Positions 1,288-51,191 of a stretch of DNA of 64,000 bases are shown here, in pieces. The notes under the pieces were generated by a model, which saw only the letters and a list, made by a program, of their open reading frames with translations, was not told the origin of the DNA and searched no databases. The stretch's first letter is position 1. Each line of letters begins with the position of its first letter. A program made the position numbers and the translations under genes. The DNA comes from a virus, in IMG/VR virus record IMGVR_UViG_3300042544_001456, positions 57,780-121,779 of that record, one strand, 5' to 3'.

Positions 1288-1635
1288 ATGGATGAACGTT
1301 TAGAAAAAGCACTTGATTTTAGTAATTACATGATTACTCTTGAAAATCAAAAAAGAATTTTAAAAGAACAGTATCAAGACAATATTATATTTTATTTTAG
1401 TGGCGGTAGGTTTACAGTAACTCAACAATTGTTAAGCTTTTGTCAAAGTTTGAAACAATTGAATCAAAACAACACTATTTTGATAGATGACAACGACATT
1501 CCTATCGAGGTCGAAGATCTTGAAAAGTTTACAAGCGATATTGTTAATGTTTACTGGAAAGCTGCCAATACTTATCTAGTTGCATACAATAAGTTACGAA
1601 GCAATAGAAGTATTGAAGGTATTATTGATTTATGA
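1288..1635 (+). CDS. Conserved-looking phage protein of unknown function
   Basis: This 115-residue acidic, soluble protein has no signal peptide or membrane segment. The N-terminal ~35 residues are predicted helical (MDERLEKALDFSNYMITLEN), the middle carries a beta-type stretch ending in an SGG turn (residues 38-40), and the C-terminus is helical. The SGG here is not a PP-loop: it lacks the following Asp-Ser. The start has a strong TAGGAG and follows its own promoter. The stop overlaps the next start (ATGA, 1632-1635), so it heads the glycosyltransferase operon. It may be a small regulator or fibre-associated factor, but the sequence does not decide this. Confidence 0.7.
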   Translation: MDERLEKALDFSNYMITLENQKRILKEQYQDNIIFYFSGGRFTVTQQLLSFCQSLKQLNQNNTILIDDNDIPIEVEDLEKFTSDIVNVYWKAANTYLVAYNKLRSNRSIEGIIDL

Positions 1636-2480
1636 CTAGCGGAGCATTATTAATAGCAAGAAATAATAGCGAAGTAGATTATACAAAACAAGCGGTTTAT
1701 GCTGCAAATCGTATTAAAAAATATTTAAATTTACCTGTTAGCATTATTACAGACAATGCAGCGTATTTAAAAAAATCGTTTAGCAATTACAAAACAATCT
1801 TTGATCAAGTTATCGAAATAAAAAACGAAAAAACGATTCAATATAAAAAATACAATGACGGGATTTATGTAAGAAAAAATTTAGAGTATAAAAATGATTC
1901 TAGAAGTCGTGCATATGATCTGTCTCCGTACGACGAAACTATTTTACTTGATACAGATTTTATAATTTCTAACGCAGACTTACTAAACTGTTTCAATCAA
2001 CCTCACGATTTAATGATGTACAAAGACGCAGTTGAATTGTCAGGATGGAGAGATGTTAGTGAATTTTCTAAAATTAGTGAAACAGGCCCTAACTTTTATT
2101 GGGCAACTGTAGTTTTTTTTAGAAAAACAGAAAAAAATAAAATATTTTTTAATTTAATTCAGCACATACAAGAAAATTGGTATCATTACAAAAACATTTA
2201 TCAGTTGCCTTATGCTACGTTTAGGAATGACTATGCATTTAGTATAGCTGTACATGTTATGAATGGATATAAATCAGGAAACTTTGTAAAAAGTTTACCA
2301 GGCACTATGTATTATACACTTGACAGAGATTTGATTCTTGAAATTAAAGACGAGGAGTTTTTATTTTTAGTCGAAAACAATAAAAGTTCGACTAATTATT
2401 TTCCTGTTAAGATTAAACAAAGTAATGTACACATAATGAATAAGATAAACTTAAATAGGATTATCGACAATGAGTCTTAA
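1632..2480 (+). CDS. Putative GT-A-type glycosyltransferase with DTD motif
   Basis: 282 residues. The N-terminal part carries a nucleotide-binding-like pattern (LLIARNNSEVDYTKQAVYAA at 6-25, then SIITDN at 37-42), followed by the hydrophobic ILLDTDFII around 104-112, whose DTD (107-109) is the metal/nucleotide-sugar DXD motif of GT-A enzymes such as family GT8. The family is known for sugar transfer from NDP-sugars; donor and acceptor cannot be read here. It is soluble and has no signal peptide. The next gene is the same type with related layout, suggesting a tandem duplication. The start overlaps the preceding stop (ATGA). Confidence 0.7.
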   Translation: MTSGALLIARNNSEVDYTKQAVYAANRIKKYLNLPVSIITDNAAYLKKSFSNYKTIFDQVIEIKNEKTIQYKKYNDGIYVRKNLEYKNDSRSRAYDLSPYDETILLDTDFIISNADLLNCFNQPHDLMMYKDAVELSGWRDVSEFSKISETGPNFYWATVVFFRKTEKNKIFFNLIQHIQENWYHYKNIYQLPYATFRNDYAFSIAVHVMNGYKSGNFVKSLPGTMYYTLDRDLILEIKDEEFLFLVENNKSSTNYFPVKIKQSNVHIMNKINLNRIIDNES

Positions 2481-3312
2481 TTTTACTATTTTAGCACAAA
2501 ACAGTGAGCATAATTATGTTAAACAGGCATACTTAGCAGCATTAAGCATACGATCAACAAATCCAGATAGCAAAATCTGCTTAATTACTAACGATAGCAT
2601 TGATACTAAAACAAAGTCTGTTTTTGATGACATAGTTAATATTCCTTGGGAAGATACTGCACAATCATCAAGCTGGAAAATAGAAAATAGATGGAAAATA
2701 TATCATGCTACTCCATATTCTCGCACAATAGTTCTTGATTCTGATGTATTAGTATTAGAAAACATAAGTCATTGGTGGGACTTTTTAAAAGGATACAATG
2801 TATTTTTTACAAAAAAAGTTATCACTTATCGCGGCGACGAAATTACCAGTCCTTATTATCGTAAAGCCTTTATAAATCATAATTTGCCAAACTTGTATAG
2901 TGCATTTAACTATTTTGAAAAAAGTGACGAAGCACATAACTTTTACAAGTGGTTAGAATTAGTGATGAACAATTGGGAATTATTTTATGGACAATACGCC
3001 GGCGGAAAATATTTTCAAAAATTTCCTAGTGTTGATTTAAGTGCAGCAATTGTAACAAAGATTTTGAATTGCGAAAATAAAATAGCTAGTCCGAATACTA
3101 GTTATCCGTACTTCGTTCACATGAAAGCTAGGTGTCAAGATTGGAAATTAATTCAGACTGACCGATGGCAAGACAAAGTTGGCGTGTATTTAGATAAAAA
3201 TTTAAACTTAAAAATTGGTAATTACAAGCAATCGGGTATATTTCATTATACAGAAAAAGATTTTGCTTCGGACGAAATAATATCTATATACGAAAAGTTT
3301 TTAGGAATATAG
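2470..3312 (+). CDS. Putative GT-A-type glycosyltransferase with DSD motif
   Basis: 280 residues with the same plan as its upstream neighbour: FTILAQNSEHNYVKQAYLAA (5-24), CLITND near 37-42, and TIVLDSDVLVLENI (86-99) with the DXD as DSD at 90-92. This matches GT-A glycosyltransferases of the GT8/glycogenin-like type. There is no membrane segment. It overlaps the previous gene by 11 bases and is followed by the next gene after one base, so it is translated as part of one operon. The substrate is unknown. The two adjacent copies probably act successively on the same acceptor (inference). Confidence 0.7.
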   Translation: MSLNFTILAQNSEHNYVKQAYLAALSIRSTNPDSKICLITNDSIDTKTKSVFDDIVNIPWEDTAQSSSWKIENRWKIYHATPYSRTIVLDSDVLVLENISHWWDFLKGYNVFFTKKVITYRGDEITSPYYRKAFINHNLPNLYSAFNYFEKSDEAHNFYKWLELVMNNWELFYGQYAGGKYFQKFPSVDLSAAIVTKILNCENKIASPNTSYPYFVHMKARCQDWKLIQTDRWQDKVGVYLDKNLNLKIGNYKQSGIFHYTEKDFASDEIISIYEKFLGI

Positions 3313-3313
3313 C

Positions 3314-3907
3314 GTGAACACAGATAATCTATATGTTTCAAACAAAAAATTTGTTTATTTTGACGATTTGGGAAATTTACTCTCAGTAGGAAATTCTAAC
3401 GACAGCGAAGGATTGTATATTGAGGTAGACGTTGACGAAGTTTATAATTTAATCACAGGTCAGGAACAGTTTCACACTTATCAAGTAATCTTTGATACAA
3501 TAAAAAAGAACTATATATTAAAGCATAGATTTAACAACGAAGAAGTTGTCTTTGATATTAATACACAGGTACATAAAATACCAGAATATAAGAGTAGTTC
3601 TAGGCCAGACTTAACTATAGTACAAGACATTGAAAATAAAAAATGGGTTTTTAAACTAGATGAGTCTATAAAAGAAAACTTAAAAACAAAAAAAGTATCT
3701 TTAGACAGACCCTTAATGTTTAGCATTACTAGATTTAATGATCCGCATCAATTGGAAAGATGCATTATTGTTAATTTAACAGATTTAATTTACAATGACT
3801 ATGAAATTTTATTTGAAAATCAAATAGAACACACTGTTGGATTATTAAGTGTATATACTATTAAACGACTTGAAACATATTATCACGAGGTTATTAATGG
3901 GAAATAA
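3314..3907 (+). CDS. Unknown protein in the glycosyltransferase operon
   Basis: 197 residues starting with GTG at 3314, preceded by AGGAAT. It is acidic and beta-rich, starting with NTDNLYVSNKKFVYFDD, without Cys clusters, signal peptide or membrane segment. I do not recognise a domain. The C-terminus overlaps the start of the next glycosyltransferase-like gene by 11 bases. Position between three glycosyltransferase-like genes suggests an accessory or acceptor-binding role, but this is context only. Confidence 0.65.
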   Translation: MNTDNLYVSNKKFVYFDDLGNLLSVGNSNDSEGLYIEVDVDEVYNLITGQEQFHTYQVIFDTIKKNYILKHRFNNEEVVFDINTQVHKIPEYKSSSRPDLTIVQDIENKKWVFKLDESIKENLKTKKVSLDRPLMFSITRFNDPHQLERCIIVNLTDLIYNDYEILFENQIEHTVGLLSVYTIKRLETYYHEVINGK

Positions 3908-4829
3908 ATTTAGAGTTCTTGATTACGACATTATATACTTAAGTTATGATGAACCTAATGCAGAAAAAAATTATGCAGACTTGTGCAAAAAAATTCCATG
4001 GGCAAAACGTGTTCACGGAGTCAAAGGCTCAGATGCAGCACATAAGGCATGTGCTAAACTCTCTGAAACGGATAGATTTATCACCGTTGACGGCGACAAC
4101 ACTATTAAATCGGAGTTTTTAACAAAGGAGTTTGACTTTGATGAAAATAAAGATTTAGAAAAGTGCGTTATTAGTTGGACTGCTCGAAATACTATTAATG
4201 GTCTTATGTACGGAAACGGCGGCCTTAAATGCTGGCCAAAAGAATACGTTCTTAACATGAAAACTCATGAAAATGCAGACCCAAACAACCCTCACGCACA
4301 AGTAGATTTTTGTTGGGATGTAGAATACATTCAAATGAATAGCTGTTACAGTGAAATTTTTAATAACGCAACTCCACAACAAGCATGGCGTGCAGGTTTT
4401 CGCGAAGGCGTTAAAATGTCGCTCGACCGCGGCATTAAGCCATCGATAGAAGATTTTAAAAAGAACCATTGGAAAAATTTACACAGACTTTATATTTGGT
4501 TAATGATAGGTGCTGATGTAGAAAACGGTATGTGGGCTATTTACGGTGCTCGAGAAGGATTACATAAGACAATGTTATCCGATTGGGATTATGTAAATGT
4601 TAGAGACTTTGACTGGCTTAATGATTACTGGAACAATACTGTTACTAAAAATGTCAATGAAGAAAACATTATCCGTAAATGCGAGGACTTAGCTGATGCA
4701 CTTATTCCGGTGTTGGATTTACCTATTGCGGCTTATCCACTAGAAGCAGAACAAAGTAAGTTTTTTAAAACAGTATATCAAAATCCTGCAAGGACATTCG
4801 ATCAACAATTTATAGATAGAGAACAATGA
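3897..4829 (+). CDS. GT-A-like protein, VDGD type (single-domain)
   Basis: The start at 3897 is chosen because CACGAGG lies 8 bases upstream; an in-frame ATG at 3849 is deep inside the previous gene. 310 residues: DIIYLSYDEPNAEKNY (11-26), AKRVHGVKG (36-44), then FITVDGDNTI (61-70), whose DGD at 65-67 is a DXD-type motif. Later NGLMYGNGGLKCWP precedes a helical C-terminal half. The same core (YDEPNA / RVHGVKG / VDGD / YGxGGxKxxP) forms the C-terminal domain of the 857-residue repeat protein at 21764. It is followed with 4-base overlap by a twitch radical SAM gene and then an SGNH gene; the same trio recurs at 19.3-24.3 kb. Glycosyl or nucleotidyl transfer is likely, but the substrate is unknown. 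Confidence 0.68.
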   Translation: MGNKFRVLDYDIIYLSYDEPNAEKNYADLCKKIPWAKRVHGVKGSDAAHKACAKLSETDRFITVDGDNTIKSEFLTKEFDFDENKDLEKCVISWTARNTINGLMYGNGGLKCWPKEYVLNMKTHENADPNNPHAQVDFCWDVEYIQMNSCYSEIFNNATPQQAWRAGFREGVKMSLDRGIKPSIEDFKKNHWKNLHRLYIWLMIGADVENGMWAIYGAREGLHKTMLSDWDYVNVRDFDWLNDYWNNTVTKNVNEENIIRKCEDLADALIPVLDLPIAAYPLEAEQSKFFKTVYQNPARTFDQQFIDREQ

Positions 4830-6202
4830 CTTCAGAAACAGACTTAATCAAGCAACAAAATACAGAAATGGACAAAATAAGTCCAACGTTTTGTTTAGCT
4901 AAATGGCATCATACAACAATATACTTGCACACAGGTGATACCCACAGTTGTTATCATCCTGCTCCTCACGCTATTTCTTTGTCGGAAATAAAAAATAATC
5001 CTAGTGCTTTGCACAACACTCTAACAAAGAAAAAAGAACGTGCAAAGATGCTTATTGGTGAAAAACCTGAAGGCTGTAAATACTGTTGGAATGTAGAATC
5101 TCTTGGTAACGATCACATCTCAGATAGAATGATTAGAAACCAATCAATTTATAAGCCTGAGAGAGTTGAAGAAATTCTAACAAAGCCGTGGGATTTTAAC
5201 GTTAATCCTGAATATGTTGAAGTTGCATTTTCAAATGAATGCAATTTTAAATGTGGATATTGCCACCCAATGGCAAGTAGTTCTTATCATGCTGAAATTA
5301 AAAAGTTTGGAAAAGTCGAAGGTGTTAACAACCATGCACTAGACATTGACTGGTTTAAGCCAATGGAAGAAGATAACAATCCTTACATTAAAGCATGGTG
5401 GGAATGGTGGCCTGAGCTTTCAAAAACTCTAAATATTTTAAGAATTACAGGTGGCGAACCGTTGATGCATAAAAGCACATGGAATTTATTTGAGAGATTG
5501 AAAAAAGATCCCCGTCCTCACCTTGAACTTAATTTAAATAGTAACTTGGGTATAAGTCCGAGATTAGTAACAAAGTTATCAACCAGTGTTAACGAGCTAT
5601 TAGAAACAAACTCCATAAAAAAGTTTAAACTTTATTCAAGTATAGATTCTTTTGGAAAACGTGCTGAGTATATGAGAACCGGATTAGATGTCGATTTGTG
5701 GGAATCAAATATGAAAAACTACTTAGACGTTACTGGTGCAGATATTACTTTCATGTGTACCTTTAATATTTTAAGTGTTACTAGTTTTACTTTGTTTTTA
5801 GAAAAAATACTAGAATGGCGTAAACAATATCATCATCCGTCGAGAAGAAGAATTAGGTTTGATACTCCGTATTTAAAAGAACCGTTGCAATATGATATGC
5901 ATATTCTTCCTAAGGAAGAATTTCTTCCTTATTTTGATAAAATATTAAAATTTATAGAAGACAATACAGACGAAAAAGATACTACTAAATTCTCTGATTT
6001 AGAATATGAAAGATTTCGTCGTGTTAGAAACTATTTTGCATCGGTAGCATACGAAGAAAATAAAATTGTCGAAGGTAGAAAAGACTTTTATAACTGGTTT
6101 AAAGAGTACGATAGAAGAAGAAATGTAAACTTTTTAGAAACATTTCCTGAAATGGAAAATTTTTATAATCTATGTAAGGATACTACTACCAATGCAGGGT
6201 AA
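4826..6202 (+). CDS. Radical SAM protein with N-terminal twitch-type cysteines
   Basis: 458 residues. The N-terminal region carries Cys23, Cys42 (SCYHPAPH), Cys84 and Cys87 (CKYC), an auxiliary iron-sulfur/twitch-like arrangement. The radical SAM motif CNFKCGYC follows with Cys139, Cys143 and Cys146 for the [4Fe-4S] cluster, and ITGGEP (207-212) is the SAM-binding motif. The family makes a 5'-deoxyadenosyl radical from SAM. The reaction here is unknown. The conserved N-terminal KISPTFCLAKWHH and the SCYHP block are shared closely with the protein at 20234. Overlaps: ATGA with the GT-like gene upstream and 11 bases with the SGNH-type gene downstream. Many aromatic residues (KAWWEWWPELSKTL) surround the site before the GGEP motif. 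Confidence 0.85.
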   Translation: MTSETDLIKQQNTEMDKISPTFCLAKWHHTTIYLHTGDTHSCYHPAPHAISLSEIKNNPSALHNTLTKKKERAKMLIGEKPEGCKYCWNVESLGNDHISDRMIRNQSIYKPERVEEILTKPWDFNVNPEYVEVAFSNECNFKCGYCHPMASSSYHAEIKKFGKVEGVNNHALDIDWFKPMEEDNNPYIKAWWEWWPELSKTLNILRITGGEPLMHKSTWNLFERLKKDPRPHLELNLNSNLGISPRLVTKLSTSVNELLETNSIKKFKLYSSIDSFGKRAEYMRTGLDVDLWESNMKNYLDVTGADITFMCTFNILSVTSFTLFLEKILEWRKQYHHPSRRRIRFDTPYLKEPLQYDMHILPKEEFLPYFDKILKFIEDNTDEKDTTKFSDLEYERFRRVRNYFASVAYEENKIVEGRKDFYNWFKEYDRRRNVNFLETFPEMENFYNLCKDTTTNAG

Positions 6203-7034
6203 CCTATATACGTTTGGATGCAGTTTTGCTCAATATTCGTGGCCGATGTGGCCAGACATTGTGGCACAAAGTTACAATGTGACAAAAAATTATGGAAATC
6301 CAGGATGTGGAAATTTTTATATATTTCACAAAGCAACCAACGTATTACTCAGTAATAAAGTAAAAAATACTGATACGGTAATAATACAGTGGACAGAACC
6401 AAACAGAACTGATTACATCAATGAAAATGGAGATTGGGTGTGTTTAGGAAGTTTAACATCTGAACAGTTAACAAAAGCTAAATTAGATTTTTTAATTTCA
6501 GATAAAACTTCAATAATAAAAACACTAACGTATATGGTTAATTTAATAAATTTATTAGAAAATACAGGTTGTAAATGGTATTTTATGTTTATGTCTCCTG
6601 ATAGTATGGTTTATTCTAACGAAATTTCAAAATTGTTTATAGATACAACTCTTTCTTATTTTTATAATTCGTTAATTAAAAAGCTCTCATTATATAAAAA
6701 TCATTTTATTGATAGTAAAACAATGACGGTTTTTTTTCGTAGTAAAAAAATGCCAATAAAAAATTGTTACTATGTAGACAATGATAAAAAAATGCAACAC
6801 TATCACGACGATCACCCATTAACAAATTACACACTAATGTATATTAAAGAAATAGTATCTTTAAAAATATTAGATTTAAATATTGTAAAAATGGAAGAAT
6901 ATGTCGACGAAGTAATGACAAATTTTGACTTTCAAACACAGATTAATTTAATTATGTTAGAAAAAAGACTTTCAACAAATCAAAAATTATTAAATTTTAA
7001 AAAAGCACTTGACTGTAGGAATGACTATGAATAA
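6192..7034 (+). CDS. SGNH-hydrolase-like protein
   Basis: 280 residues. LYTFGCSFAQYSWP (5-18) fits block I of SGNH/GDSL-type hydrolases, with Ser in FGCSF as candidate nucleophile. NYGNPGCGN (32-41 region) fits the block II Gly, IIQWTEPNR the block III region, and HDDHPLTNYTLMYI near residue 205-218 the terminal Asp-x-His block. The family removes or transfers acyl groups on sugars and lipids. There is no signal peptide, so it would act in the cytoplasm. Its relative at 19346 also adjoins a twitch radical SAM gene. Extremely Lys/Asn/Ile-rich codon use matches the phage. An acetyl-esterase or acyltransferase role is inferred. Confidence 0.6.
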   Translation: MQGNLYTFGCSFAQYSWPMWPDIVAQSYNVTKNYGNPGCGNFYIFHKATNVLLSNKVKNTDTVIIQWTEPNRTDYINENGDWVCLGSLTSEQLTKAKLDFLISDKTSIIKTLTYMVNLINLLENTGCKWYFMFMSPDSMVYSNEISKLFIDTTLSYFYNSLIKKLSLYKNHFIDSKTMTVFFRSKKMPIKNCYYVDNDKKMQHYHDDHPLTNYTLMYIKEIVSLKILDLNIVKMEEYVDEVMTNFDFQTQINLIMLEKRLSTNQKLLNFKKALDCRNDYE

Positions 7035-8325
7035 AGAACTGGTTTTTGTATATGACTGGATAGGACCAGAAGGTCCGTTGAATAACTACAAGGTACCGGA
7101 CCTGTATGATTTAATAAAACGATTGCCGTATTTAAGATGGGACAGCAATTCTGTAACAGATGAGCAAGATCCGATTTCGATGTTAATAAAAGATTATGTT
7201 AAATGTAGATTTGTTCCTTCGTACGACGTTGAAAGTCTTGGAGACACTCCATTTATGTATGAAATATTACTTTCTCCTAGAAAGTTTTTTACAGAAATTA
7301 CATTAAACAGTCACTTGGGTGTTTTTCAAACAACTCCTGTAAGCCAAACTGTTTTAGATGCTGTAAGAAATAGGAATGGTTTTATTTTACTTTCTAACAA
7401 ATATGAAAGCTTTGTTGATAATGCAACTTTTAAAAGTATACATGATTATTTTAAAGAAAATCAAATACCTTTGAATAAAGTAATATACTTAAATAATTGT
7501 GCAAATTCACAAGAAATTTATGAAAAATATTGCAATAAATATTGTATCGAAGAAAGAATAAACTGTGAATATGCAGGATTATATGTCTTGCAGCAACGTG
7601 TGGTATGCAAAGATCCTGTATTCTCAAAGAGAACAGATGCAAATGTTAAAAAAGAAAAATTATTTCTAAATTTCAATAGACGTCACAGATTGCATAGATA
7701 CATTTTATTATTAAAGTTTTTTGAGCATGATTTGCTAAAACGTACACATATGAGTTTTTCAAGAGATGTTCCAGTGGAACATTGGATTCACGACGCACAA
7801 CGGGCAGTAGCAGAATACGATATAAGATTAAAGATTGACGAGTTATACCAAGTGTACGATTCGTTGCCCTATGTTTTAGATACTCACGACTTTTCAAGAT
7901 TTCCTATGGAAGATCGACTTGAGGACACAATAAGTTGGTATGATAAAACTTATATAAGTATAGTTTCTGAAACTAACTTTGAGAATAACATCATACATAT
8001 GACTGAAAAAACTATTAAACCTATAATTTTTAAACAACCTTTTATTATTGTTGGTCCAGCAAAAACTTTAGAATCTTTAAGAAAATTAGGATTTCAAACG
8101 TTTTCGGATTTCTGGGATGAAGGCTACGATAATGAATCAGACCCTAAAAAAAGAATGAAAAAGATAATTTCGCTCTGTAGAACTATTTCAAAATGGAGTC
8201 CTATGGAATTACACACATTTTATGCAAGAACGAAAGAAATAAGAGAATATAATTTCAAAAATCTTGCAAATTTAAAACCTATTGAATTAAATAACTTTGT
8301 AGAAAAGTACGGTGCAAATATATGA
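7027..8325 (+). CDS. Putative glycosyltransferase, HR / EKTxKPI family
   Basis: The start at ATG 7027 is preferred: TAGGA at 7016-7020 has proper spacing; TTG 7009 and ATG 7021 are alternatives. 432 residues. Signature parts are LFLNFNRRHRLHRYILLLKF in the middle and, near the C-terminus, MTEKTIKPIIFKQPFIIVG followed by LRKLGFQTFSDFWDEGYD. The EKTxKPI...PF pattern recalls the nucleotide-binding motif of fucosyltransferase-like (GT10) enzymes, but the similarity is only by eye. Four other genes or gene halves in the window share both signatures (9284, both halves of 12458, 15690). The next gene, a GDP-sugar-epimerase-like enzyme, overlaps by 4 bases (ATGA), supporting a sugar-transfer role. 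Confidence 0.6.
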   Translation: MNKELVFVYDWIGPEGPLNNYKVPDLYDLIKRLPYLRWDSNSVTDEQDPISMLIKDYVKCRFVPSYDVESLGDTPFMYEILLSPRKFFTEITLNSHLGVFQTTPVSQTVLDAVRNRNGFILLSNKYESFVDNATFKSIHDYFKENQIPLNKVIYLNNCANSQEIYEKYCNKYCIEERINCEYAGLYVLQQRVVCKDPVFSKRTDANVKKEKLFLNFNRRHRLHRYILLLKFFEHDLLKRTHMSFSRDVPVEHWIHDAQRAVAEYDIRLKIDELYQVYDSLPYVLDTHDFSRFPMEDRLEDTISWYDKTYISIVSETNFENNIIHMTEKTIKPIIFKQPFIIVGPAKTLESLRKLGFQTFSDFWDEGYDNESDPKKRMKKIISLCRTISKWSPMELHTFYARTKEIREYNFKNLANLKPIELNNFVEKYGANI

Positions 8326-25849: not shown

Positions 25850-26073
25850 ATGATTTAACAAAGTTAAGTTTAAGAGATTTACAAAAAGAAAGTGCCCGTG
25901 CGTTAAGCACAATACAAGCAACTAATAATAATATTTTTCAATTTAATAAACAGGCACATCATAATAGTCAAAATTGGTATATAGCTGTAATTAAATGGTA
26001 CATAGAGCAATACGGTGATCTTCCTAGTAAAATAGGTCCAGGAAAGGATGTAGAGTTAATATACGATGTATGA
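25846..26073 (+). CDS. Small unknown protein ahead of a radical SAM gene
   Basis: 75 residues without Cys. Residues 1-30 look helical (SLRDLQKESARALSTIQATN), followed by HNSQNWYIAVIKWYIEQYG and a short PSKIGPGKD tail. It overlaps the sulfotransferase by 4 bases and the radical SAM gene by 8, so translation is coupled to both. It could be a small binding partner such as a peptide-recognition element, but there is no leader/core pattern that would mark a modified-peptide precursor. Function unknown. Confidence 0.65.
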   Translation: MNDLTKLSLRDLQKESARALSTIQATNNNIFQFNKQAHHNSQNWYIAVIKWYIEQYGDLPSKIGPGKDVELIYDV

Positions 26074-41037: not shown

Positions 41038-41050
41038 GGATTTAAAAAAC

Positions 41051-42160: not shown

Positions 42161-42171
42161 AAAACTTTAAA

Positions 42172-42795: not shown

Positions 42796-42796
42796 A

Positions 42797-44257
42797 ATGG
42801 TAGATATAGCAATATTAGTAATACCAAAAATAGATCCATATGCTCCTACAGTAGGTCCGGCAATTCTTAAAAGTCATCTTTCTGCAGAAGGATTTTCATG
42901 CAAAATAATAGACCTAAATATACAATTGTATAATATAATGTCCGATGAGGAAAAAGAAAAGTATTTCTTTAAAAATGATGATAAAATATTTGTAACCGAG
43001 TGGGATTATTCTTTAGAAAAAGAACATAAAATTTTTCTTAAAAAATATAAAAATTGGACAAATAGTGTTATTAACGATTTAAAAAAATTAAAACCAAGAT
43101 TTGTAGGCATGAGTTTGCTAACTGAGTATAGTAGAACTTTTGCAATTTACTTTTCTATGTTAATAAAAAAATACTTACCTAACACAAAGATTATTTGGGG
43201 CGGCGCCGACGTTCGTGGTTATCGAGCTCAGTATCCGCTCAATAGAGGTTTGATTGATTTTTTTATACACGGAGATGCAGAATTTTCTTTAGTTGAATTA
43301 TTAAAAGGTAATGTGTCTGCTCCTGGAATTAACTCAGACGAAGCACACCAAGTTGAAGATTTGTCAACTGTACTAATACCTGACTATAGCGATATAGAAT
43401 GGACTTTATATCCTAACAGGTTTAAAAACGGAAAAACTGTTTACATAACTGGAAGTAGAGGGTGTGTTAAAAATTGTACATTTTGCGATATACATCGACT
43501 TTGGCCGAAGTATAAATTTAGATCTGCTAAAAGTATTTTTACTGAGATAGTAGAAATTCGTAAACTCTGGAACCGAACAGATTTTCATTTTACCGATAGC
43601 TTAATAAACGGAAGTATGAAAACATTTAGAGAATTACTAAATTTATTAAAAGAATATAGAAAAACAGACCCTGGTTTTACTTGGAGCAGTCAATGGATTA
43701 TGCGACCTCAATCACAGTGTACAGCAGAGGATTTTCAGTTAATGAAAGATAGCGGATGTCACGGACTTGATGTTGGACTAGAAAGCTTTAGTGAAAGTGT
43801 TAGATTTCATATGGGTAAAAAGATCAAAGATGAAGATATGTGGTTTTGCCTTGAACAACTTCAAAAAAATAGAATACAACACAGTTTGCTAATGATAGTT
43901 GGATATCCAACTGAAACAGATGAAGATCACAAGATAACATTAGACACTATTAGAAAATTAAAAGAGATAGGATATCTTGATACAAAGGTCGGCGATTACT
44001 CGCAAACTCCACTAATTCATTTTGGATTCGGAAATACATTGATATTAGATAAGGATTCTATAATTTATGAGACTATAAAGGACGATTTAGAATATTATAA
44101 TAGTTCTCTTAATTGGAAGTATAAAGACAATTCTCCGGAAGTCAGAAAGAAGAGAATATCGGAAATATGGAATTTAATAAACGAAGTATATGGCAAAAAT
44201 TCACATATGGAAAAAATCGTAAATGCACATTTAGAAAAATTTAATAAGCTATATTAA
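42797..44257 (+). CDS. B12-binding-type radical SAM protein
   Basis: The ATG at 42797 has GGAAAAG at suitable spacing; the upstream ATG at 42779 lies in the previous gene. 486 residues. The N-terminal domain has LVIPKIDPYAPTVGPAIL, FVGMSLLTEYS and KIIWGGADVRG; the radical SAM motif TGSRGCVKNCTFC gives Cys223, Cys227 and Cys230; HFTDSLINGSMKTF, LDVGLESFSESVRFHMG and LMIVGYPTETDEDH are barrel strands. It shares ITGSRGC(V)xxCTFCDI and TDSL(L/I)NGS with the gene at 39473. Ends 4 bases into the convergent gene at 44254. Confidence 0.83.
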   Translation: MVDIAILVIPKIDPYAPTVGPAILKSHLSAEGFSCKIIDLNIQLYNIMSDEEKEKYFFKNDDKIFVTEWDYSLEKEHKIFLKKYKNWTNSVINDLKKLKPRFVGMSLLTEYSRTFAIYFSMLIKKYLPNTKIIWGGADVRGYRAQYPLNRGLIDFFIHGDAEFSLVELLKGNVSAPGINSDEAHQVEDLSTVLIPDYSDIEWTLYPNRFKNGKTVYITGSRGCVKNCTFCDIHRLWPKYKFRSAKSIFTEIVEIRKLWNRTDFHFTDSLINGSMKTFRELLNLLKEYRKTDPGFTWSSQWIMRPQSQCTAEDFQLMKDSGCHGLDVGLESFSESVRFHMGKKIKDEDMWFCLEQLQKNRIQHSLLMIVGYPTETDEDHKITLDTIRKLKEIGYLDTKVGDYSQTPLIHFGFGNTLILDKDSIIYETIKDDLEYYNSSLNWKYKDNSPEVRKKRISEIWNLINEVYGKNSHMEKIVNAHLEKFNKLY

Positions 44258-45216
44258 AGAATCATAGGTCCTGTGTAGTTTAATTTTTTTGTTGTAGATA
44301 TATCAGCAAAACATCCACAAGTAGTATATTTACACTTGACAGGAATCAGTGGAAATTTAAAATCTAAAGAATTTATATTACCGAGCACTAGGTCGGGGTT
44401 GCAACCAGAACCTATTTTAACATTTCCGTATCGATTAATAGTAATAGTATCTATGCCAATCCAACAAGCCCATCCGTACCAGTTGTTTTCTTTTGATAAA
44501 ACTAATTTACCAATATTAACAGCAGGGTCTACAACTGTTCCGTTAAGCTTTTTAACCATAGGAGTTTCGAATATTTCGATAGATCTGCTCCATTTAGATG
44601 GTAACTTTTTAATAGTTTCAATTTGCAATTCTGTATATGGCATCAATTCGGTGTTATTTAACACTTTCCGTAAAGGCTTAGAATATAAACAAATATTTTC
44701 ATGCAGGTTGTTATAAGCATAATAATAATCTTCAACGGCTTGATCAAACACTGCAACATCCATTGCAAATTGAAAGTCTATATAGATTTTATCTGCTAGC
44801 TTGTTAAACTTTTCTACTAATTTAACAATATCGGTTTGTGCAACATGCACACTAACAATAATTTTATCTATGTATGGTGCAGAATTTTCCCACCATCTTA
44901 GTGTTCTATTGCCGTTTGTCAACAATTGTAATATATTTTTGTTGTTAATAGATTTGATATATTTGCTAAATTCTGGCAAATCATTCCATATAGTAGGTTC
45001 TCCACCTAAAAGATTATACACTGCAAATTCTTTACAAGAACTGTATTCTTTCTCTATTTTTTCGACTACTTTTTTTGCAACAGTTATATCGGGAAAATTT
45101 ATTTTTCCGTCATGTGACTCGGGTGTGCAGTAATAGCAATTGTAATTGCAGCGACTACTTATATCCCAATCTACAAATACATAGTTTTTAAAATGAGTGA
45201 GCTCGTCATAAATCAT
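44254..45216 (-). CDS. Radical SAM protein, short form
   Basis: 320 residues. WDISSRCNYNCYYC places Cys23, Cys27 and Cys30 at the N-terminus, and LLGGEP is at 69-74. The C-terminal GWACWIGID, GSGCNPDL and CKYTTCGCFADI supply Cys for an auxiliary cluster. KIYIDFQFAMDVAVF is the central strand. It is a single leftward gene between two rightward blocks, and its start is divergent from the gene at 45282. No close copy elsewhere in the window. Reaction unknown. Confidence 0.82.
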   Translation of the reverse strand: MIYDELTHFKNYVFVDWDISSRCNYNCYYCTPESHDGKINFPDITVAKKVVEKIEKEYSSCKEFAVYNLLGGEPTIWNDLPEFSKYIKSINNKNILQLLTNGNRTLRWWENSAPYIDKIIVSVHVAQTDIVKLVEKFNKLADKIYIDFQFAMDVAVFDQAVEDYYYAYNNLHENICLYSKPLRKVLNNTELMPYTELQIETIKKLPSKWSRSIEIFETPMVKKLNGTVVDPAVNIGKLVLSKENNWYGWACWIGIDTITINRYGNVKIGSGCNPDLVLGNINSLDFKFPLIPVKCKYTTCGCFADISTTKKLNYTGPMIL

Positions 45217-45247
45217 GCTAATACTTATCTGTTAAATATAAACATAA

Positions 45248-45275: not shown

Positions 45276-45281
45276 AAAAAT

Positions 45282-46400
45282 ATGACCGAAGATTTAAAAT
45301 GGAGCAATTATGACTTTACCAAAATCCCGTTTGACGACATTGTCCAAGTCGGCCAACGGACACTCTTATATAGAGACTTATTTACTGTATCTTGGCTCCT
45401 TGGAAGATTCTGCAACTACAGATGCAGCTATTGTTGGCCGTACGCAAGATCCAACACAAAAGATCATCGACCTACAGAGCTATGTCTCAAAACAATCGAC
45501 GAAATAAAACGTCAAGCACGTGATAACGGTTTTAATAGCTTTCATTTTAGTTTATCTGGTGGCGAGCCTACTTTTCACCCTGGGTATTTGGATATTCTCA
45601 AATATCTTGCTGATGATGTTTCTAATACTAATTACACTTCCATTCATATGACATCAAATTGTTCAAGGCCAATGAAATGGTTTGAACAATACGTAGAATA
45701 TTCTAAGCCCTTTCATCGTGCAAGTATTACTGCTAGCTTGCATACAGAACATTTAGACACAAAGGAAAAGATGCAGGATTTTGCAGACAAGTTAATCCTG
45801 TGTCAAGAATATGATATACAAATTACAATCAATATGGTTATGGTTCCAGAATGGTTCGAAAAGGATTGGGAAAATGCTTTATTCTTCCACGAACAGGGAA
45901 TTAACGTTACACTCAAGCCACAAAGTGATCCTACTGCTAGCAGGGTAGTAGATGGTTATACTCCTGATATGCTTAAGAGACTGTGGAACGGAATGCCACA
46001 ACGAGCATATACAGAAAACAAACGTATCTGGGCAAACAGACCGACTCCGACATTTGAACTTCCTGACTACACAATAGGACGTAATGATGCTACTGTGCCG
46101 TGGCACATGCAAGTAGAGTTTACCGACTCTAAAGGCGAAAAATGGTATATGGATCAGGCCGAACGATTTAATGCGTTTAACTTCAATAACTTTAAAGGTT
46201 GGAGTTGCAATGCAGGATACCAGGGCATAATTATTAGAGAGCCGGATGGATCGGTTAAACGTTCGTATTCATGCCACGATGTTCCGTTGGGTAATATCGA
46301 AACAGGATTTAAATTGTTTGACAAACCTATGCCGTGCATAACATCTAGTTGTGTAAGCAGTGCAGATAGTAAAATTCCAAAGTTTAAGAAAGAATTATAA
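45282..46400 (+). CDS. Radical SAM protein
   Basis: 372 residues. LLGRFCNYRCSYCWPYARS gives Cys44, Cys48 and Cys51; LSGGEPTFHP (91-100) is the SAM-binding block. ITASLHTEHLDTKEKMQDF and VMVPEWFEKDWENALFF are later strands. The C-terminal SCNAGYQGII, SYSCHDV and CITSSCV Cys suggest an auxiliary cluster. It resembles SPASM enzymes more than the twitch set. Base composition is nearer 40% GC and the codons look more conserved than in neighbours. It appears to be translated from a leaderless transcript. Stop and next start share one base (TAATG). Confidence 0.83.
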   Translation: MTEDLKWSNYDFTKIPFDDIVQVGQRTLLYRDLFTVSWLLGRFCNYRCSYCWPYARSNTKDHRPTELCLKTIDEIKRQARDNGFNSFHFSLSGGEPTFHPGYLDILKYLADDVSNTNYTSIHMTSNCSRPMKWFEQYVEYSKPFHRASITASLHTEHLDTKEKMQDFADKLILCQEYDIQITINMVMVPEWFEKDWENALFFHEQGINVTLKPQSDPTASRVVDGYTPDMLKRLWNGMPQRAYTENKRIWANRPTPTFELPDYTIGRNDATVPWHMQVEFTDSKGEKWYMDQAERFNAFNFNNFKGWSCNAGYQGIIIREPDGSVKRSYSCHDVPLGNIETGFKLFDKPMPCITSSCVSSADSKIPKFKKEL

Positions 46401-47452
46401 TGCCCTTATGTAAAGCGTTATATAATCAAGTATGTGTAGAAATTAGTGGAAAATATAGACCTTGCTGCGAATATCCTGAAACAAGTCCGTACACAGTAGA
46501 TGATTTAACACCTTTAGAATTTTTAAATTCGGATTATATTGCTTCTATAAGAAAAAATATGGAAGGAGATTCATGGGACAAAGGGTGCTTATCGTGTAAG
46601 AAAACAGAAATGCTAGGGATGCATTCTGTTAGAGATAGCTATAGTTTTTATTGTCAGTCTGACATAAATGTCTTTGATATGTTAGAAATTGCGGTAAGCA
46701 ATAAATGCAATAGCCGGTGTCGCATGTGCGATCCGAAACATAGCAGTCTTTGGAAGAAAACTGAAGATAATTTAAAAACTGCTGGAGTAGTTTCCTATAA
46801 TATAGAAAAATTATTAAAAAGCATTACTGGAACACAGGTTAATACAATAAAATACCTTGGTGGAGAGCCATTACTTACAGATGAAATAGAAAACATTTTT
46901 AATTTTATTAAAAATCATAGTGATAATAAAATAAAATTTTACATTAACACAAATCTGACTGTATCACCAGAAAAGTTCGAAACACAACTACTTAATGCAG
47001 ATGAAATTTTTGTTGGGTACAGTATAGACGGCACTGAAAGAGTTAACGAATTTATACGTGATGGATGTAAATGGGACTCGGTAGTTAAAAATTTAGAAAA
47101 ATGGGAAGATTTTTTTAAAAACAACAACAAGAAAAGTATGAGATACATTCATACAGTAGTGCAGGCATATAATTTTCATAATATAGAACAATTAAATAAT
47201 TTTAGTAAAGAGTTTAATTTAGAACATAATCCTGTTCTTATAAAAGATCCTGTAGAATTTACGCTAAACTCATTGCCACCGGAATATATAGAAAAACATA
47301 AAAACAATTACAATTCTAGTTTTATAAAAGATTACAAATATAATTACAAACTTAATAAGATGTTAGTGGAAAAAACAAAGTACCAAGATCTTATATTGAA
47401 AAAAAGTATAGATAAGTATATCCCAGAGTTATCGGATGTATTAAAAAAATAA
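46400..47452 (+). CDS. Radical SAM protein with N-terminal twitch-type cysteines (type B)
   Basis: 350 residues, the shortest type B copy. Cys4, Cys12, Cys22/23 (RPCCEYP), Cys63 and Cys66 (CLSC) form the N-terminal set. CNSRCRMC holds Cys103, Cys107 and Cys110; LGGEP is at 153-157. IFVGYSIDGTERVNEFIRDG is the late strand. The usual YIKFMNSED tail is absent, so it is C-terminally reduced. Directly joined to the radical SAM gene upstream. Confidence 0.83.
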   Translation: MPLCKALYNQVCVEISGKYRPCCEYPETSPYTVDDLTPLEFLNSDYIASIRKNMEGDSWDKGCLSCKKTEMLGMHSVRDSYSFYCQSDINVFDMLEIAVSNKCNSRCRMCDPKHSSLWKKTEDNLKTAGVVSYNIEKLLKSITGTQVNTIKYLGGEPLLTDEIENIFNFIKNHSDNKIKFYINTNLTVSPEKFETQLLNADEIFVGYSIDGTERVNEFIRDGCKWDSVVKNLEKWEDFFKNNNKKSMRYIHTVVQAYNFHNIEQLNNFSKEFNLEHNPVLIKDPVEFTLNSLPPEYIEKHKNNYNSSFIKDYKYNYKLNKMLVEKTKYQDLILKKSIDKYIPELSDVLKK

Positions 47453-47469
47453 AAGGAAATTATAAAATT

Positions 47470-48000
47470 ATGAATATTGCAATAACAGGTCATACTAATG
47501 GTTTAGGAAAAGCAATTGTTAATTTAGTAGGCAATGACAAAGTTGTAGGATTTAGTACATCAACCGGATATGATATAACAGATCCGTTAAGTAGACAGTG
47601 CATTATCGACAAATCTATACATTGCGATGTGTTTATTAATAATGCACATGATGGATATGCTCAAACACAGTTACTATATGAATTGTGGGATAGATGGGCA
47701 GAACTTGACAAAATTATTATAAACATTGGTAGTAATACTACAGATGGAATCAAACGCCATCCTCACGAATATTCAGCACAAAAAGCAAGCTTAGAAAAAG
47801 CCAACGAGCAGTTAGCTAATATGAACAAACCGTGCAAGGTTACTATGTTTAGATTTGGTTATATAGGCACTGAACGGATTTTAAGTATGGTCAATCCATC
47901 TAGCTTTATAAATACTAATGATGCTGCACAATTTATTATAGATTCTGTGAATATGACTCGTAGTTATAGATTGACATCAATGACAATATTGCCAAAGTAA
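47470..48000 (+). CDS. Short-chain dehydrogenase/reductase-like protein
   Basis: 176 residues. IAITGHTNGLGKAIV (3-17) is the cofactor-binding TGxxxGxG region, DVFINNAHDG (53-62) resembles NNAG, IINIGS (83-88) gives Ser88, and Tyr101/Lys105 in YSAQK form the catalytic pair. FRFGYIGTERI follows. The family usually has ~250 residues; the C-terminal substrate-binding part is short. It would reduce or oxidise a keto or hydroxyl group with NAD(P). It lies between a radical SAM and an oxygenase gene in one operon. Confidence 0.8.
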   Translation: MNIAITGHTNGLGKAIVNLVGNDKVVGFSTSTGYDITDPLSRQCIIDKSIHCDVFINNAHDGYAQTQLLYELWDRWAELDKIIINIGSNTTDGIKRHPHEYSAQKASLEKANEQLANMNKPCKVTMFRFGYIGTERILSMVNPSSFINTNDAAQFIIDSVNMTRSYRLTSMTILPK

Positions 48001-48013
48001 TAAAAAGGAAAAA

Positions 48014-48595
48014 ATGGAAAACTTTCGCGAAATATCTGGATTGCCTATACTTAATTTAATAGAAGAGTATAACAGATTATTAGATATGAATATTATTAAT
48101 TTTTCTCCAAGAGAACCAAACCAAATCTGTTTAAATACTACAGACGATCAACCGGACAATATACATCACGGAGTTGGTAGTTTAGATTTAGATTGGGACA
48201 AAGCAGGGATAGATATTAAATCAGGAATTCCAACTAATCCTGTTGTACGAGAAAATCCTTTAAAAGAAGAAGATTTTAAACACCTATGCACAAGATTTCA
48301 TGGAACACTTTTTGAAACTGCATATAACGCATTAGACAGTATGTTTGTCTTGGGCAGAGTTAGAATAATGAAATCAAGACCAAAAACATGCTTGTCGTGG
48401 CATGTTGACCATAATGTAAGAGTTCATTATCCTATGCAAACTCAAGAAGGATGCTTAATGGTAATAGAAGATCAAGTGTGTCACTTAGAAAAAAATAAAT
48501 GGTGGTATACAGAAACTCAGAAAAAGCATACAGCGTTTAATGCTAGTACAAAAGAAAGAATACATTTAGTTGCAACAATTATTTCTAGTAAGTGA
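48014..48595 (+). CDS. Putative 2OG-dependent oxygenase, aspartyl/asparaginyl hydroxylase-like
   Basis: 193 residues. His130 and Asp132 in SWHVDHN, His172 in KKHTAFNAS and Arg182 in KERIHLV form the HxD...H...R set of aspartyl/asparaginyl beta-hydroxylase-like enzymes; HTAFNAS resembles the family block with the distal His followed by a short loop and Arg. RVHYPMQTQEGC fits the 2OG-side strand. Its substrate could be a protein side chain or a small molecule. The TGA stop forms part of a convergent hairpin. Third oxygenase of the island. Confidence 0.72.
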   Translation: MENFREISGLPILNLIEEYNRLLDMNIINFSPREPNQICLNTTDDQPDNIHHGVGSLDLDWDKAGIDIKSGIPTNPVVRENPLKEEDFKHLCTRFHGTLFETAYNALDSMFVLGRVRIMKSRPKTCLSWHVDHNVRVHYPMQTQEGCLMVIEDQVCHLEKNKWWYTETQKKHTAFNASTKERIHLVATIISSK

Positions 48596-48613
48596 TTACT
48601 CACTTACTAGAAA
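48582..48613. terminator. Bidirectional hairpin between convergent genes
   Basis: TTTCTAGTAAGTGA (48582-48595), loop TTAC, and TCACTTACTAGAAA (48600-48613) form a perfect 14-bp stem. It holds the stop codons of both convergent genes (plus TGA at 48593-48595; minus stop in 48596-48598). There is no long U-tract on either side, so termination strength is uncertain. Confidence 0.65.
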
Positions 48614-49945
48614 ATTTACAAATTGCCAATCTTTCACAGTAAAGTCTGATTTTACAAATACATACTTACCGAGATACGGCATCGACTTGTCTAAAATAAA
48701 GTCATAGGGCAAATCATCAGGTTCTAGTAATCCGCAATGTGTGTTCTCGTTAACCCAGAGCATTGCAGCAAACAACGGTGCAACTACTTGTAGACTAGTT
48801 GCATTATTATGACTAATCAATGATCTAGTTTCGTCGATGCTTAGTTGACTTCCTAGCCAGTATGCACCAAAATCTCCCATAAACAAAACTCCTAACTCGT
48901 CCATACCGCCGACTAGAGAGTCTGTCATTATTCTTGCATTATCTTGACCTTTTAAGTTTCTTTTAACTAATTCTTCAAGACTTTCGGATGCTACATCACA
49001 CGGACAATATGCATAATGCACAGTCGGTCTATAGTGATCAGTTGTTAAAAATTCTGCAATTGACATAGATTCCTGATGTGTTATTAAATAGCCTACGATA
49101 CTTTTATGACTTGGCGTCCATGTTTTTACTTTTGTAGAACATCCGGGAGTTTTTAAGAAAATGGATGACTTTGTTCCGTATTCGTGGTTGCAGCCTTGCG
49201 ATGGCATTTCTAGTTCGTGTGTACCCCAACCGAGTTCTGCAGGCAATATTCCCTCGGCAATAAAACCATCAACGCTCCAAGTATTCACGAATTCGTTTTT
49301 CTTTTTTTCGGATAAGTCAAATTGCGAATCTCTCTCAGATACGTGTATTGTTTTAAGTCCTATTTTTTTAGAAAGCTCTGCCCATTCAATTTTATTTGTG
49401 GGTGTATCTTCGTATCCAAGAATTTTTGATATTCTTAAAATTCCGTCTTTAACTATGTGGTTTACTAACCCGGGATTAGCACCGTGCGATACAATAGCTG
49501 TAGATTTATTTTTTCTATCGTTTTTTGTACTGATTAGTTTGTTTCTTAATCCATAATTTGATCTTTCACTGTCTGACATCGAAAAGTTGTCAAAAAATCC
49601 TGGCCACGGTTGAATACATGTATCTATATAATTTAAATTGTTTAACATGCAATAATCGATTAAATCTTGTGAAGACACGTCGACTGTTAAGTTAATTACT
49701 AGATCACCGTCGGATGTATAATTTGACAGAAGCTCTTTGTAAGAATCTTTCTCAATTTTTTTTAAAATTCTAGTAAGATTGTATTGTTCAGTGATGTCAC
49801 TATTTCGGTTATCTTCAGAAATAATTGTAACATTAGGATTTTCGATGTGTTTGTATATTAACGGTAACAGTGCATTAGAAATGCTACCTGCACCGAGGAT
49901 AATTATTTTTTTAAAATTTTTATATGTCGTAGTATAGTGGGTCAT
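48596..49945 (-). CDS. Homospermidine synthase-like protein
   Basis: 449 residues. KIIILGAGSISNALLPLIYK (13-32) is the NAD-binding Rossmann start. NYIDTCIQPWPGFF and the hallmark VSHGANPGLVNHIVKDGI match homospermidine synthases of the saccharopine-dehydrogenase superfamily. WAELSKKIGLKTIHVSERDS, ATSLQVVAPLFAAMLW and the CGLLEPDDLPYD ending also fit. Bacterial enzymes (~470 residues) make homospermidine from putrescine (or putrescine and spermidine) with NAD. In a phage this could supply a polyamine to neutralise DNA charge, or a building block for modification. It overlaps the gene upstream in its operon by 26 bases. Confidence 0.85.
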   Translation of the reverse strand: MTHYTTTYKNFKKIIILGAGSISNALLPLIYKHIENPNVTIISEDNRNSDITEQYNLTRILKKIEKDSYKELLSNYTSDGDLVINLTVDVSSQDLIDYCMLNNLNYIDTCIQPWPGFFDNFSMSDSERSNYGLRNKLISTKNDRKNKSTAIVSHGANPGLVNHIVKDGILRISKILGYEDTPTNKIEWAELSKKIGLKTIHVSERDSQFDLSEKKKNEFVNTWSVDGFIAEGILPAELGWGTHELEMPSQGCNHEYGTKSSIFLKTPGCSTKVKTWTPSHKSIVGYLITHQESMSIAEFLTTDHYRPTVHYAYCPCDVASESLEELVKRNLKGQDNARIMTDSLVGGMDELGVLFMGDFGAYWLGSQLSIDETRSLISHNNATSLQVVAPLFAAMLWVNENTHCGLLEPDDLPYDFILDKSMPYLGKYVFVKSDFTVKDWQFVNFLVSE

Positions 49946-51191
49946 TTTCTTTAAATCCTCTTGCTAAAAAGTCATTTGATGTTGTTCTAATAATTTGCCA
50001 GTTGTTAAATTCATTTTCAGAAATTATATCTTTTATTGGATGTATAAACTGTGCCATTGGTTTTTTAGTCCAGTCAATATCTTCGATTGTGTTAAATGTA
50101 ATTTCGTGCATTTCTTTTTTATAGTATATTAATAGTGATTCCTTGATGTATTCGTAGCCTGTTATTTTCTCATAAAATTTTAATTTTTGAGATCCATGCA
50201 TCATACTAACTTTTCTTTTAAAATTATAATCGACTGTCTTGGTTGATTGCACATCTTCTAGTTTTAAAAATGCATATATTTGCTCTGGACTATACATAAA
50301 AAAATCATAAATGCATGTGTTGTTAGTCAAGTGTGCCCACGTAGGAGCAGAAAGGCCTATAGAATAAGAACAGTCTCCGATGCATACTTCGCCATCTTTA
50401 TTCAGTTTCATTTCGACCTGATCTGAGGCCATGATCGGAACGCCGCCTAACTTGTTTATGTGTTCGATCATAAGTTGTTGAGTATAAAGATATGGCAGAA
50501 TAAAATAAGTTTCATAAACTCCGTTTATAAAATATTCTCTATGTCTGTTGTTATATAGATCTTCTAGAATATTCACATCTTTGGTAACAAGTTTTATGTT
50601 ATATTTTTTACATAAATCAACAGCGTGTTTAATATCGTGTTCGTTTAATATTTTATCTTTATGCTTATAAACTAAAGAAAATGCCGTAAATTTAACATTA
50701 GCATCGATAAATGCAAGAGCCATAAGTTCAGAATCTAATCCTCCACTTAAACAAAGAAAGATATCTTTATATCTTTCTTTTATATGTTTTGCACTGTTTA
50801 CACATTCATCCCACCATGACATAACTTCAATGTCTTTAGGAATTTTAAACTTTTCTATAAAAGGAAGCAAAGGCAAATTAGGTAAAGCAGTTAAACCGTA
50901 TCCAAATGATAAATTAGAATCTTTAGAAAACTTACAAGTATTTGTGCTAACAAATTGTTTATTTATAATATAAAAATCATGTATTTTGTTGTTAACTTCT
51001 ACTTTTATAGAAATGTTACTTACATCGTTTTTAAGTAATAAGAAATCTTGATCCTTATTATAAATTTTATAAGGAATAGTGGATAAGTCTACTATTCCTG
51101 GATTAACATAAATTGCTGGGTGTGTTATATCTGGTTTTTTTAGTTTTTGTAAAATAAATTTTTCTACATCGTTTATGTATAATCTACCCAT
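49920..51191 (-). CDS. Asparagine-synthetase-like PP-loop protein
   Basis: 423 residues. FLCLSGGLDSELMALAFID places the PP-loop SGGLDS at 149-154, with a helix after it and FTAFSLVYKHKD as the second strand. The N-terminal ~115 residues are a beta-rich domain but lack the Cys2 glutaminase nucleophile, so ammonia must come from elsewhere or another amine is used. C-terminal half is long and helical. Beta-lactam- or carbapenem-type amide synthetases and asparagine synthetases share this fold; substrate unknown. Adjacent to homospermidine synthase: an amidation using the polyamine is conceivable (inference). Confidence 0.75.
   Translation of the reverse strand: MGRLYINDVEKFILQKLKKPDITHPAIYVNPGIVDLSTIPYKIYNKDQDFLLLKNDVSNISIKVEVNNKIHDFYIINKQFVSTNTCKFSKDSNLSFGYGLTALPNLPLLPFIEKFKIPKDIEVMSWWDECVNSAKHIKERYKDIFLCLSGGLDSELMALAFIDANVKFTAFSLVYKHKDKILNEHDIKHAVDLCKKYNIKLVTKDVNILEDLYNNRHREYFINGVYETYFILPYLYTQQLMIEHINKLGGVPIMASDQVEMKLNKDGEVCIGDCSYSIGLSAPTWAHLTNNTCIYDFFMYSPEQIYAFLKLEDVQSTKTVDYNFKRKVSMMHGSQKLKFYEKITGYEYIKESLLIYYKKEMHEITFNTIEDIDWTKKPMAQFIHPIKDIISENEFNNWQIIRTTSNDFLARGFKENDPLYYDI

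Follow-up and report, generated by a model that had tools for sequence, protein, structure and literature searches.

A radical SAM-rich island behind a fibre gene of an uncultivated T4-like jumbo phage combines a fixed core with variable cargo

Introduction

Hypervariable fibre and glycosylation islands are already known as a kind in marine T4-like phages. In pelagimyophages and cyanomyophages they are described, in the available text of PMC7029224, as host recognition clusters (HRCs): hypervariable regions with a mean length of 44.6 kb in the T4-like structural region, containing tail fibres, glycosyltransferases and radical SAM cassettes. Here we analyse an island at positions 1288-51191 of a 64,000-nucleotide stretch of viral DNA (the window), which corresponds to bases 57,780-121,779 of the 121,779-bp IMG/VR record IMGVR_UViG_3300042544_001456. 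The island carries 17 radical S-adenosylmethionine (rSAM) genes and adjoins a fibre gene.

Three further precedents bear on such a locus. The marine T4-like genome TARA_ERS488813_N000010, described in 2017, encodes 12 radical SAM genes, which the accessible part of PMC5332604 reads through Fe-S metabolism and an A-type carrier. Jumbo cyanophages carry capsular or lipopolysaccharide (LPS) clusters and secondary-metabolite clusters, as far as set out in the text of PMC7824862 at hand. Virion glycosylation itself was shown experimentally for mycobacteriophages, with glycans on the capsid and the tail tube (Freeman et al. 2023, as related in the available part of PMC12619734). These precedents, the division of the island into core and cargo, and a link to Bdellovibrionota were not part of the original prediction for this DNA, which was made from the letters alone.

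Results

The island is composed of two layers, a fixed core and variable cargo. The core follows the fibre-type gene ORF1 (223-1227), the last of a fibre run, whose Ser/Thr-rich product (Ser plus Thr, 29%) is the presumed acceptor. The succeeding genes encode a conserved 115-aa protein (ORF2, 1288-1635; a candidate adaptor or chaperone), a glycosyltransferase (GT)-like protein (1632-2480), a GT8 enzyme (2470-3312), a 197-aa protein (3314-3907) and a GT-A-like protein (3849-4829), usually followed by a twitch-domain rSAM enzyme (4826-6202). Genes lie on the plus strand unless stated otherwise and are named below by their first coordinate. The core genes overlap or abut in one direction; therefore, judging from this layout, they are probably co-transcribed. 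Beyond the core, the plus-strand run extends over 1288-36050 with overlaps or gaps of <50 bp, except for one gap of 216 bp.

Conservation of the core was assessed with the single ORF2 protein as query, so that the scan was anchored on ORF2 and not on an rSAM gene. The family of ORF1 (W223) stood directly upstream of ORF2 in 77 of the 77 loci, among 80 returned, that had a readable gene. The order ORF2-1632-2470-3314-3849 was kept in all 68 loci with enough sequence, and 67 of these 68 had at least one rSAM gene, usually of the 4826 type, within 9.5 kb. At 95% identity the loci reduce to 26 different ORF2 sequences, so they are not all independent. The same order was also found at ~30-50% identity in three distant phages (G005, G007 and G013). 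The original prediction had allowed that relatives might place the island far from structural genes; throughout the 77 loci its start lies beside the fibre gene. The core also occurs, in order, in a contig binned as Neomarinimicrobiota (L148, PBPT01000082.1), which is probably phage sequence in a metagenome-assembled genome (MAG).

Three core proteins have glycosyltransferase features. The 2470 family profile matched glycogenin (E 1.4e-5), and a Foldseek search with its AlphaFold2 model (pLDDT 89.8) also returned glycogenin (E 6e-9, TM-score about 0.5); profile and predicted fold together confirm 2470-3312 as a GT8 glycosyltransferase. The model of 3849 (pLDDT 79) gave weak GT-A matches, including SunS and the PBCV-1 capsid glycosyltransferase 2p6w (TM-score <0.4). 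The 1632 protein has a GT8-like LLDTD motif (alignment A5) without profile confirmation.

The 17 rSAM proteins first recognised by their Cys triads were borne out by profile searches: all 17 open reading frames (ORFs), between 4826 and 47452, combine a CX3CX2C triad with a match to Pfam PF04055 (E 8e-17 to 6.5e-4). Ten exceed the curated PF04055 cut-off. Four of the other seven pass that of NCBIfam NF033640, the twitch-domain rSAM model (310-414 bits; cut-off 170 bits), and the remaining three (26066, 29216 and 34941) are clearly paralogous to 41051, a protein above the PF04055 cut-off. The NF033640 cut-off was passed by 4826, 20234, 27154, 30280, 36014 and 46400, with 33715 below it (132.6 vs 170 bits), in a scan that left out 32475, 34941, 41051 and 42779. 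Three of the rSAM proteins have a B12-binding domain; they score against families for ribosomally synthesised and post-translationally modified peptides (RiPPs), KedN5 and P-methyltransferases, in each case under the cut-off.

These genes are confined to the island. A search of the whole record gave 16 PF04055 matches, every one within the island and 0 in the other 57.8 kb; a 330-kb contig encoding proteins near-identical to those of the window phage (L012/G001) carries all 17 rSAM genes at 46.7-89.4 kb, that is, within 43 kb. The density had been called far beyond usual phage content, which holds against cultivated relatives, where PF04055 counts were 0 (Vibrio phage 2.275.O and PA5oct), 1 (RaK2, CBB and HTVC008M), 4 (Phosso) and 6 (Vibrio phage K566). 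It does not hold within the lineage, where related genomes carry up to 20 rSAM genes, or beside the genome with 12 (PMC5332604). In K566, rSAM genes, twitch-like ones among them, form a small cluster beside GT-like genes (L347, OZ196521.1 161548-168284). In a very large virus contig (G006, 607,744 bp), 13 rSAM matches were spread genome-wide and not gathered in one island.

Virion-type genes border the island, as originally proposed: on the left, a 4,603-aa virion protein is followed by a fibre/tail run that ends with ORF1, and on the right a fibre-type protein (51916-53361, minus strand) bears a Pfam Mtd_N domain. Among the 47 island ORFs there was no multi-transmembrane or strongly hydrophobic protein, and no flippase, polymerase or ATP-binding cassette exporter of the kind by which an O-antigen or capsule operon would be recognised. 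Transmembrane flags at 4826 and 24318 were single borderline peaks just at the threshold and were taken as false positives. The island of the related genome G002 likewise had no multi-transmembrane protein.

A comparable arrangement was found in a cultivated phage. In Sinorhizobium phage Phosso (L349, PV764938.1 184865-193014), four rSAM genes lie in a co-directional block behind a homologous fibre gene, and these four belong to other subfamilies, none matching the island's own profiles. On that record the block covers 185271-192395 and the fibre gene 193132-195012. Unrelated rSAM genes therefore occupy the same fibre position, which argues that rSAM chemistry serves the fibre locus.

The cargo turns over unevenly along the island. 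At an identity of at least 40%, the genes kept in the related genomes G003 and G004 were 19 of 24 in the left half, 1 of 23 in the right half and 11 of 14 in the flank. By similarity, the cargo is shown to encode predicted enzymes that make or alter nucleotide sugars and amines. These comprise a GDP-mannose 3,5-epimerase (8322-9284; 2c59, E 3e-91, next family 4e-23), a UDP-glucose/GDP-mannose dehydrogenase (14518-15693; profile and similarity), a short DegT-type pyridoxal phosphate (PLP) aminotransferase (17588-18316; Pfam and similarity), an amidinotransferase nearest to inosamine-phosphate amidinotransferase (18306-19346; 1bwd, E 2.6e-101) and a homospermidine synthase (48596-49945, minus strand). 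The last has near full-length similarity to characterised enzymes (2ph5, residues 12-436, E 2.5e-106), from which its activity is predicted, and no homologue among the related loci examined. B12-dependent and SPASM/twitch rSAM enzymes, QueC-like ATPases and 2-oxoglutarate (2OG) oxygenases complete the cargo classes. Profiles thus confirm several sugar enzymes along with the 17 rSAM proteins, whereas the original prediction had left room for most of them to be something else. Of the other enzymes that it named, the sugar-nucleotide (epimerase and UDP-sugar dehydrogenase), DegT PLP, amidinotransferase, 2OG oxygenase and QueC-like genes were upheld, but profiles did not support the SGNH assignments or the sulfotransferase at 25166.

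Part of the right-half cargo is shared with the predatory Bdellovibrionota. A 936-kb contig (G017:C15) packs 14 ORFs with an rSAM motif into about 32 kb (636500-668600; L160-L162), including homologues of 39473 (64% identity), 36014 (57%), 29216 (54%), 45282 (66%) and 27154 (57%). A similar rSAM-dense cluster in a second genome (G016:C275, L157-L159) has a 39473 homologue at 68%. Close orthologues of 39473 (63-68%) occur in four Bdellovibrionota genomes; at E 1e-100 it matched 0 of 399 genomes from the phylum of a Pelagibacterales MAG and 0 of 297 from that of a Flavobacteriales MAG. For 29216, 37182, 42779 and 46400, the best bacterial match beat the best phage match, and triads of rSAM, B12 and rSAM genes stay together in Bdellovibrionota. 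These comparisons are evidence of cargo exchange between phage and Bdellovibrionota, though the host is not thereby proven.

In the left arm of the record, genes for a major capsid protein of T4 type, a portal, a baseplate hub, the 4,603-aa virion protein and several fibre/tail components are followed by ORF1. The capsid protein was 71% identical to those of Vibrio phage 2.275.O and Phosso and 67% to that of PA5oct, and a T4 RNase H-like exonuclease was 51% identical to that of PA5oct. These protein identities therefore place the source, which is uncultivated, among the T4-like jumbo phages of the PA5oct/Phosso supergroup. ORF1, ORF2, 3849 and 4826 had zero matches among 50,697 phage records. 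An assignment to the moraphages was weighed and dropped; radical SAM enzymes go unmentioned in the available text of PMC12619734. No tRNA genes were found, and an Rfam search gave zero matches.

The remaining genes are given in map order. After the core rSAM (NF033640) come two proteins read as SGNH-like from their sequences, both without a Pfam match (6192-7034 and 19346-20191). Interspersed are four GT-like candidates with an EKT motif: 7009-8325 (MTEKTIKPI; no Pfam match), 9284-10546 (ITEKTFKPI), 12458-14521 (two domains, motif twice) and 15690-16928 (CTEKTYKSM). They surround a B12-binding rSAM whose profile is KedN5-like but under cut-off (10543-12468) and precede a Pfam-supported 2OG-Fe(II) oxygenase (16942-17682). 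A twitch-domain rSAM (20234-21760; NF033640) with 439 relatives among IMG/VR candidate stretches is followed by an 857-aa protein with several internal repeats and a C-terminus resembling 3849 (21764-24337), a methyltransferase-like protein assigned from sequence features and lacking a Pfam match (24318-25166) and the unconfirmed sulfotransferase-like protein (25166-25849; no Pfam match).

The rSAM-dense section opens with a SPASM-type rSAM (26066-27145), a twitch-domain rSAM (27154-28569; NF033640) and a QueC-like PP-loop protein recognised by profile (28566-29219). There follow a SPASM-type rSAM (29216-30265; 54-56% identity to Bdellovibrionota homologues), a twitch-domain rSAM (30280-31647; NF033640) and a putative PLP-enzyme-like protein without a Pfam match (31631-32512), which has a homologue in the Bdellovibrionota cluster. 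Three rSAM genes matching PF04055 end the run: 32475-33725, the twitch-like 33715-34938 and the SPASM-type 34941-36050. On the minus strand lie a twitch-domain rSAM (36014-37198; NF033640; 57-59% identity to Bdellovibrionota homologues), a QueC-like PP-loop protein supported by profile (37182-37937), a third such protein assigned by similarity to its paralogues without a profile match (37946-38752), an unconfirmed oxygenase-like protein without a Pfam match (38754-39464) and the B12-binding rSAM shared with four Bdellovibrionota genomes (39473-40987; Pfam). The right end comprises a SPASM-type rSAM (41051-42160; PF04055), an ORF without a Pfam match (42109-42795), a B12-binding rSAM (42779-44257; Pfam), two PF04055 rSAMs (44254-45216, minus strand; and 45282-46400, 84-86% identical in phage relatives and 66% in Bdellovibrionota) and a twitch-domain rSAM (46400-47452; NF033640). 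An SDR-like dehydrogenase with a weak match (47470-48000) and an Asp/Asn beta-hydroxylase-like oxygenase (48014-48595; Pfam) precede the homospermidine synthase, beside which lies a PP-loop ATPase with a weak match (49920-51191, minus strand). Between island and right border is another minus-strand ORF without a Pfam match (51280-51849). Outside the island the phage encodes a S-adenosylmethionine synthetase (MetK, 61242-62336, minus strand; PF02773, E 1.3e-58), which was present in four of eight related records and in G005 sits between core rSAM genes. A GTP cyclohydrolase gene near the island (63562-63999) is kept in the flank of some relatives.

Discussion

We favour reading the island as a decoration system linked to the fibre, an interpretation to which we assign a probability of about one half; the acceptor, the product and the benefit are conjectured from the genes. 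Fibre decoration was ranked above the alternatives because of the invariant fibre-core linkage, the lack of clear membrane proteins and the independent rSAM block of Phosso. In the cytoplasm, the cargo enzymes would produce unusual sugars or groups that bear amines, perhaps with cofactor supplied by MetK, and the core transferases would attach these groups to the Ser/Thr-rich ORF1 or a neighbouring fibre. As cargo is swapped among phages and with bacteria, the chemical surface of the fibre could change quickly, which may alter receptor binding or recognition by defences. More tentatively, tail fibres of this widespread lineage may carry rSAM-built groups from swappable cargo partly shared with Bdellovibrionota, amounting to a chemical diversification of receptor-binding proteins. 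Though short of proof, the class of explanation originally proposed is still the best one: a biosynthetic factory for decorating fibres or changing the host surface.

Remodelling of O-antigen, capsule or other host glycans, mainly to block competing phages, is the strongest competitor, although we consider it rather doubtful. It is the published reading for similar pelagimyophage and cyanophage clusters (PMC7029224 and PMC7824862, in their available text); LPS chemistry suits the GT8 and nucleotide-sugar genes, and variable cargo suits a serotype-like competition. However, the island lacks a flippase, a polymerase, a ligase, a lipid-carrier transferase and any other clear membrane protein, its core stands behind a fibre gene at every readable locus, and, on general grounds, a lytic period is short for replacing a surface. 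The rSAM, QueC and B12 genes could instead direct a small molecule or modified peptide against the host or its competitors. Such a factory would fit the sub-threshold scores of the B12-binding rSAM proteins, the chromosomal Bdellovibrionota clusters that stand without fibre genes and the secondary-metabolite cluster proposed for cyanophages (PMC7824862, available text). We regard it as unlikely: a search that was not exhaustive recognised neither a precursor peptide nor a carrier-protein system nor an exporter, and in nearly all loci the rSAM genes lie behind the fibre-GT core.

The two remaining alternatives are both very improbable. Phages are known to have DNA-modifying glycosyltransferases, and QueC-like, QueE-like rSAM and GTP cyclohydrolase genes might together yield deazaguanine or glycosylated bases in DNA or RNA. 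Yet the QueC-like proteins reached 25.4 bits where the QueC model requires 150.3, and no rSAM protein exceeded the QueE cut-off; the deazaguanine (preQ0) pathway was rejected with all matches under these equivalog cut-offs. Nucleic-acid modification would account for neither the fibre linkage nor the 17 rSAM genes. Alternatively, the fibre locus might be a hot spot of recombination where metabolic genes gather without being related, so that the rSAM products need neither cooperate nor act on the fibre. High cargo turnover, mixed gene origins and a tricarboxylate-type permease in one related island would agree with this, but the core is invariant, rSAM chemistry was chosen repeatedly and independently, as in Phosso, and the rSAM-B12-rSAM triads of Bdellovibrionota stay together. 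An Fe-S carrier function, suggested by PMC5332604, was discarded, as PF01521 was absent from eight related records.

Several observations weigh against fibre decoration. The acceptor, its glycan and a mass shift are so far predictions of this reading. A hot spot at which T4-like phages generally gather variable genes could account for the fibre linkage, and host transporters or flippases could be borrowed, so that missing membrane genes are compatible with a host-surface target. The G003 and G004 islands each have one multi-transmembrane permease, TctA-like and beside a binding-protein-like gene (in G004 at L112 7613-9678, G004:C1:187613-189678). The ORF2 loci come from metagenome contigs, some of which sample the same populations, and many cargo genes have no profile match. 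The T4-type late promoter TATAAATA, with 11 sites, 5 of them upstream of genes, did not exceed control words and is uninformative on timing.

If fibre decoration is correct, phages diversify their fibres chemically and not by sequence alone, using enzyme families of uncharacterised reactions. Being fixed, the ORF2-GT core gives a genetic handle for many environmental phages; the Bdellovibrionota link is a lead to the cellular role of the rSAM/QueC/B12 cassette and possibly to host range.

The core, the lineage and the Bdellovibrionota link are undescribed in the open-access literature represented by PMC7029224, PMC5332604 and PMC7824862, as far as their available text extends. Like the HRCs, the island is hypervariable amid conserved genes (1 of 23 right-half genes shared, as opposed to 11 of 14 in the flank), adjoins tail fibres and has glycosyltransferases. 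It differs in its PA5oct/Phosso-group jumbo phage, its 17 rSAM genes, its invariant fibre-ORF2-GT-GT-3314-3849 core and its sharing with Bdellovibrionota. HRCs sit between VrlC and gp14; here a giant virion protein (phrog_10938), not identified as VrlC, forms the left border, and a scan of the right flank found an ATPase, phrog_1314 and others with no match to the neck protein gp14, for which reason the island is not counted among the HRCs. TARA_ERS488813_N000010 is likewise a marine T4-like phage genome with numerous rSAM genes, but its A-type carrier is missing from eight records of the present lineage, and a fibre linkage is not described in the accessible part of that report. The jumbo cyanophage clusters share epimerases, glycosyltransferases, 2OG oxygenases and amino-acid and sugar enzymes with the island, whereas the available text of PMC7824862 never uses the word 'radical' and describes no constant link to a fibre gene. 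For mycobacteriophage virions the acceptors are experimental, while here the acceptor is a prediction from genes. The Bdellovibrionota clusters pack together orthologues of 39473, 36014, 29216, 30280, 45282, 27154 and a QueC-like gene, with a few small membrane proteins and no fibre or ORF2 core seen. The Phosso block (PV764938) lies at a homologous position, with a giant virion protein, a 199-aa protein (54% identical) and a fibre (39%) followed by co-directional rSAM genes. It differs in its size of about 8 kb, its four rSAM genes by Pfam and their subfamilies, and, being from a cultivated phage, it is a system in which fibre modification can be asked about directly.

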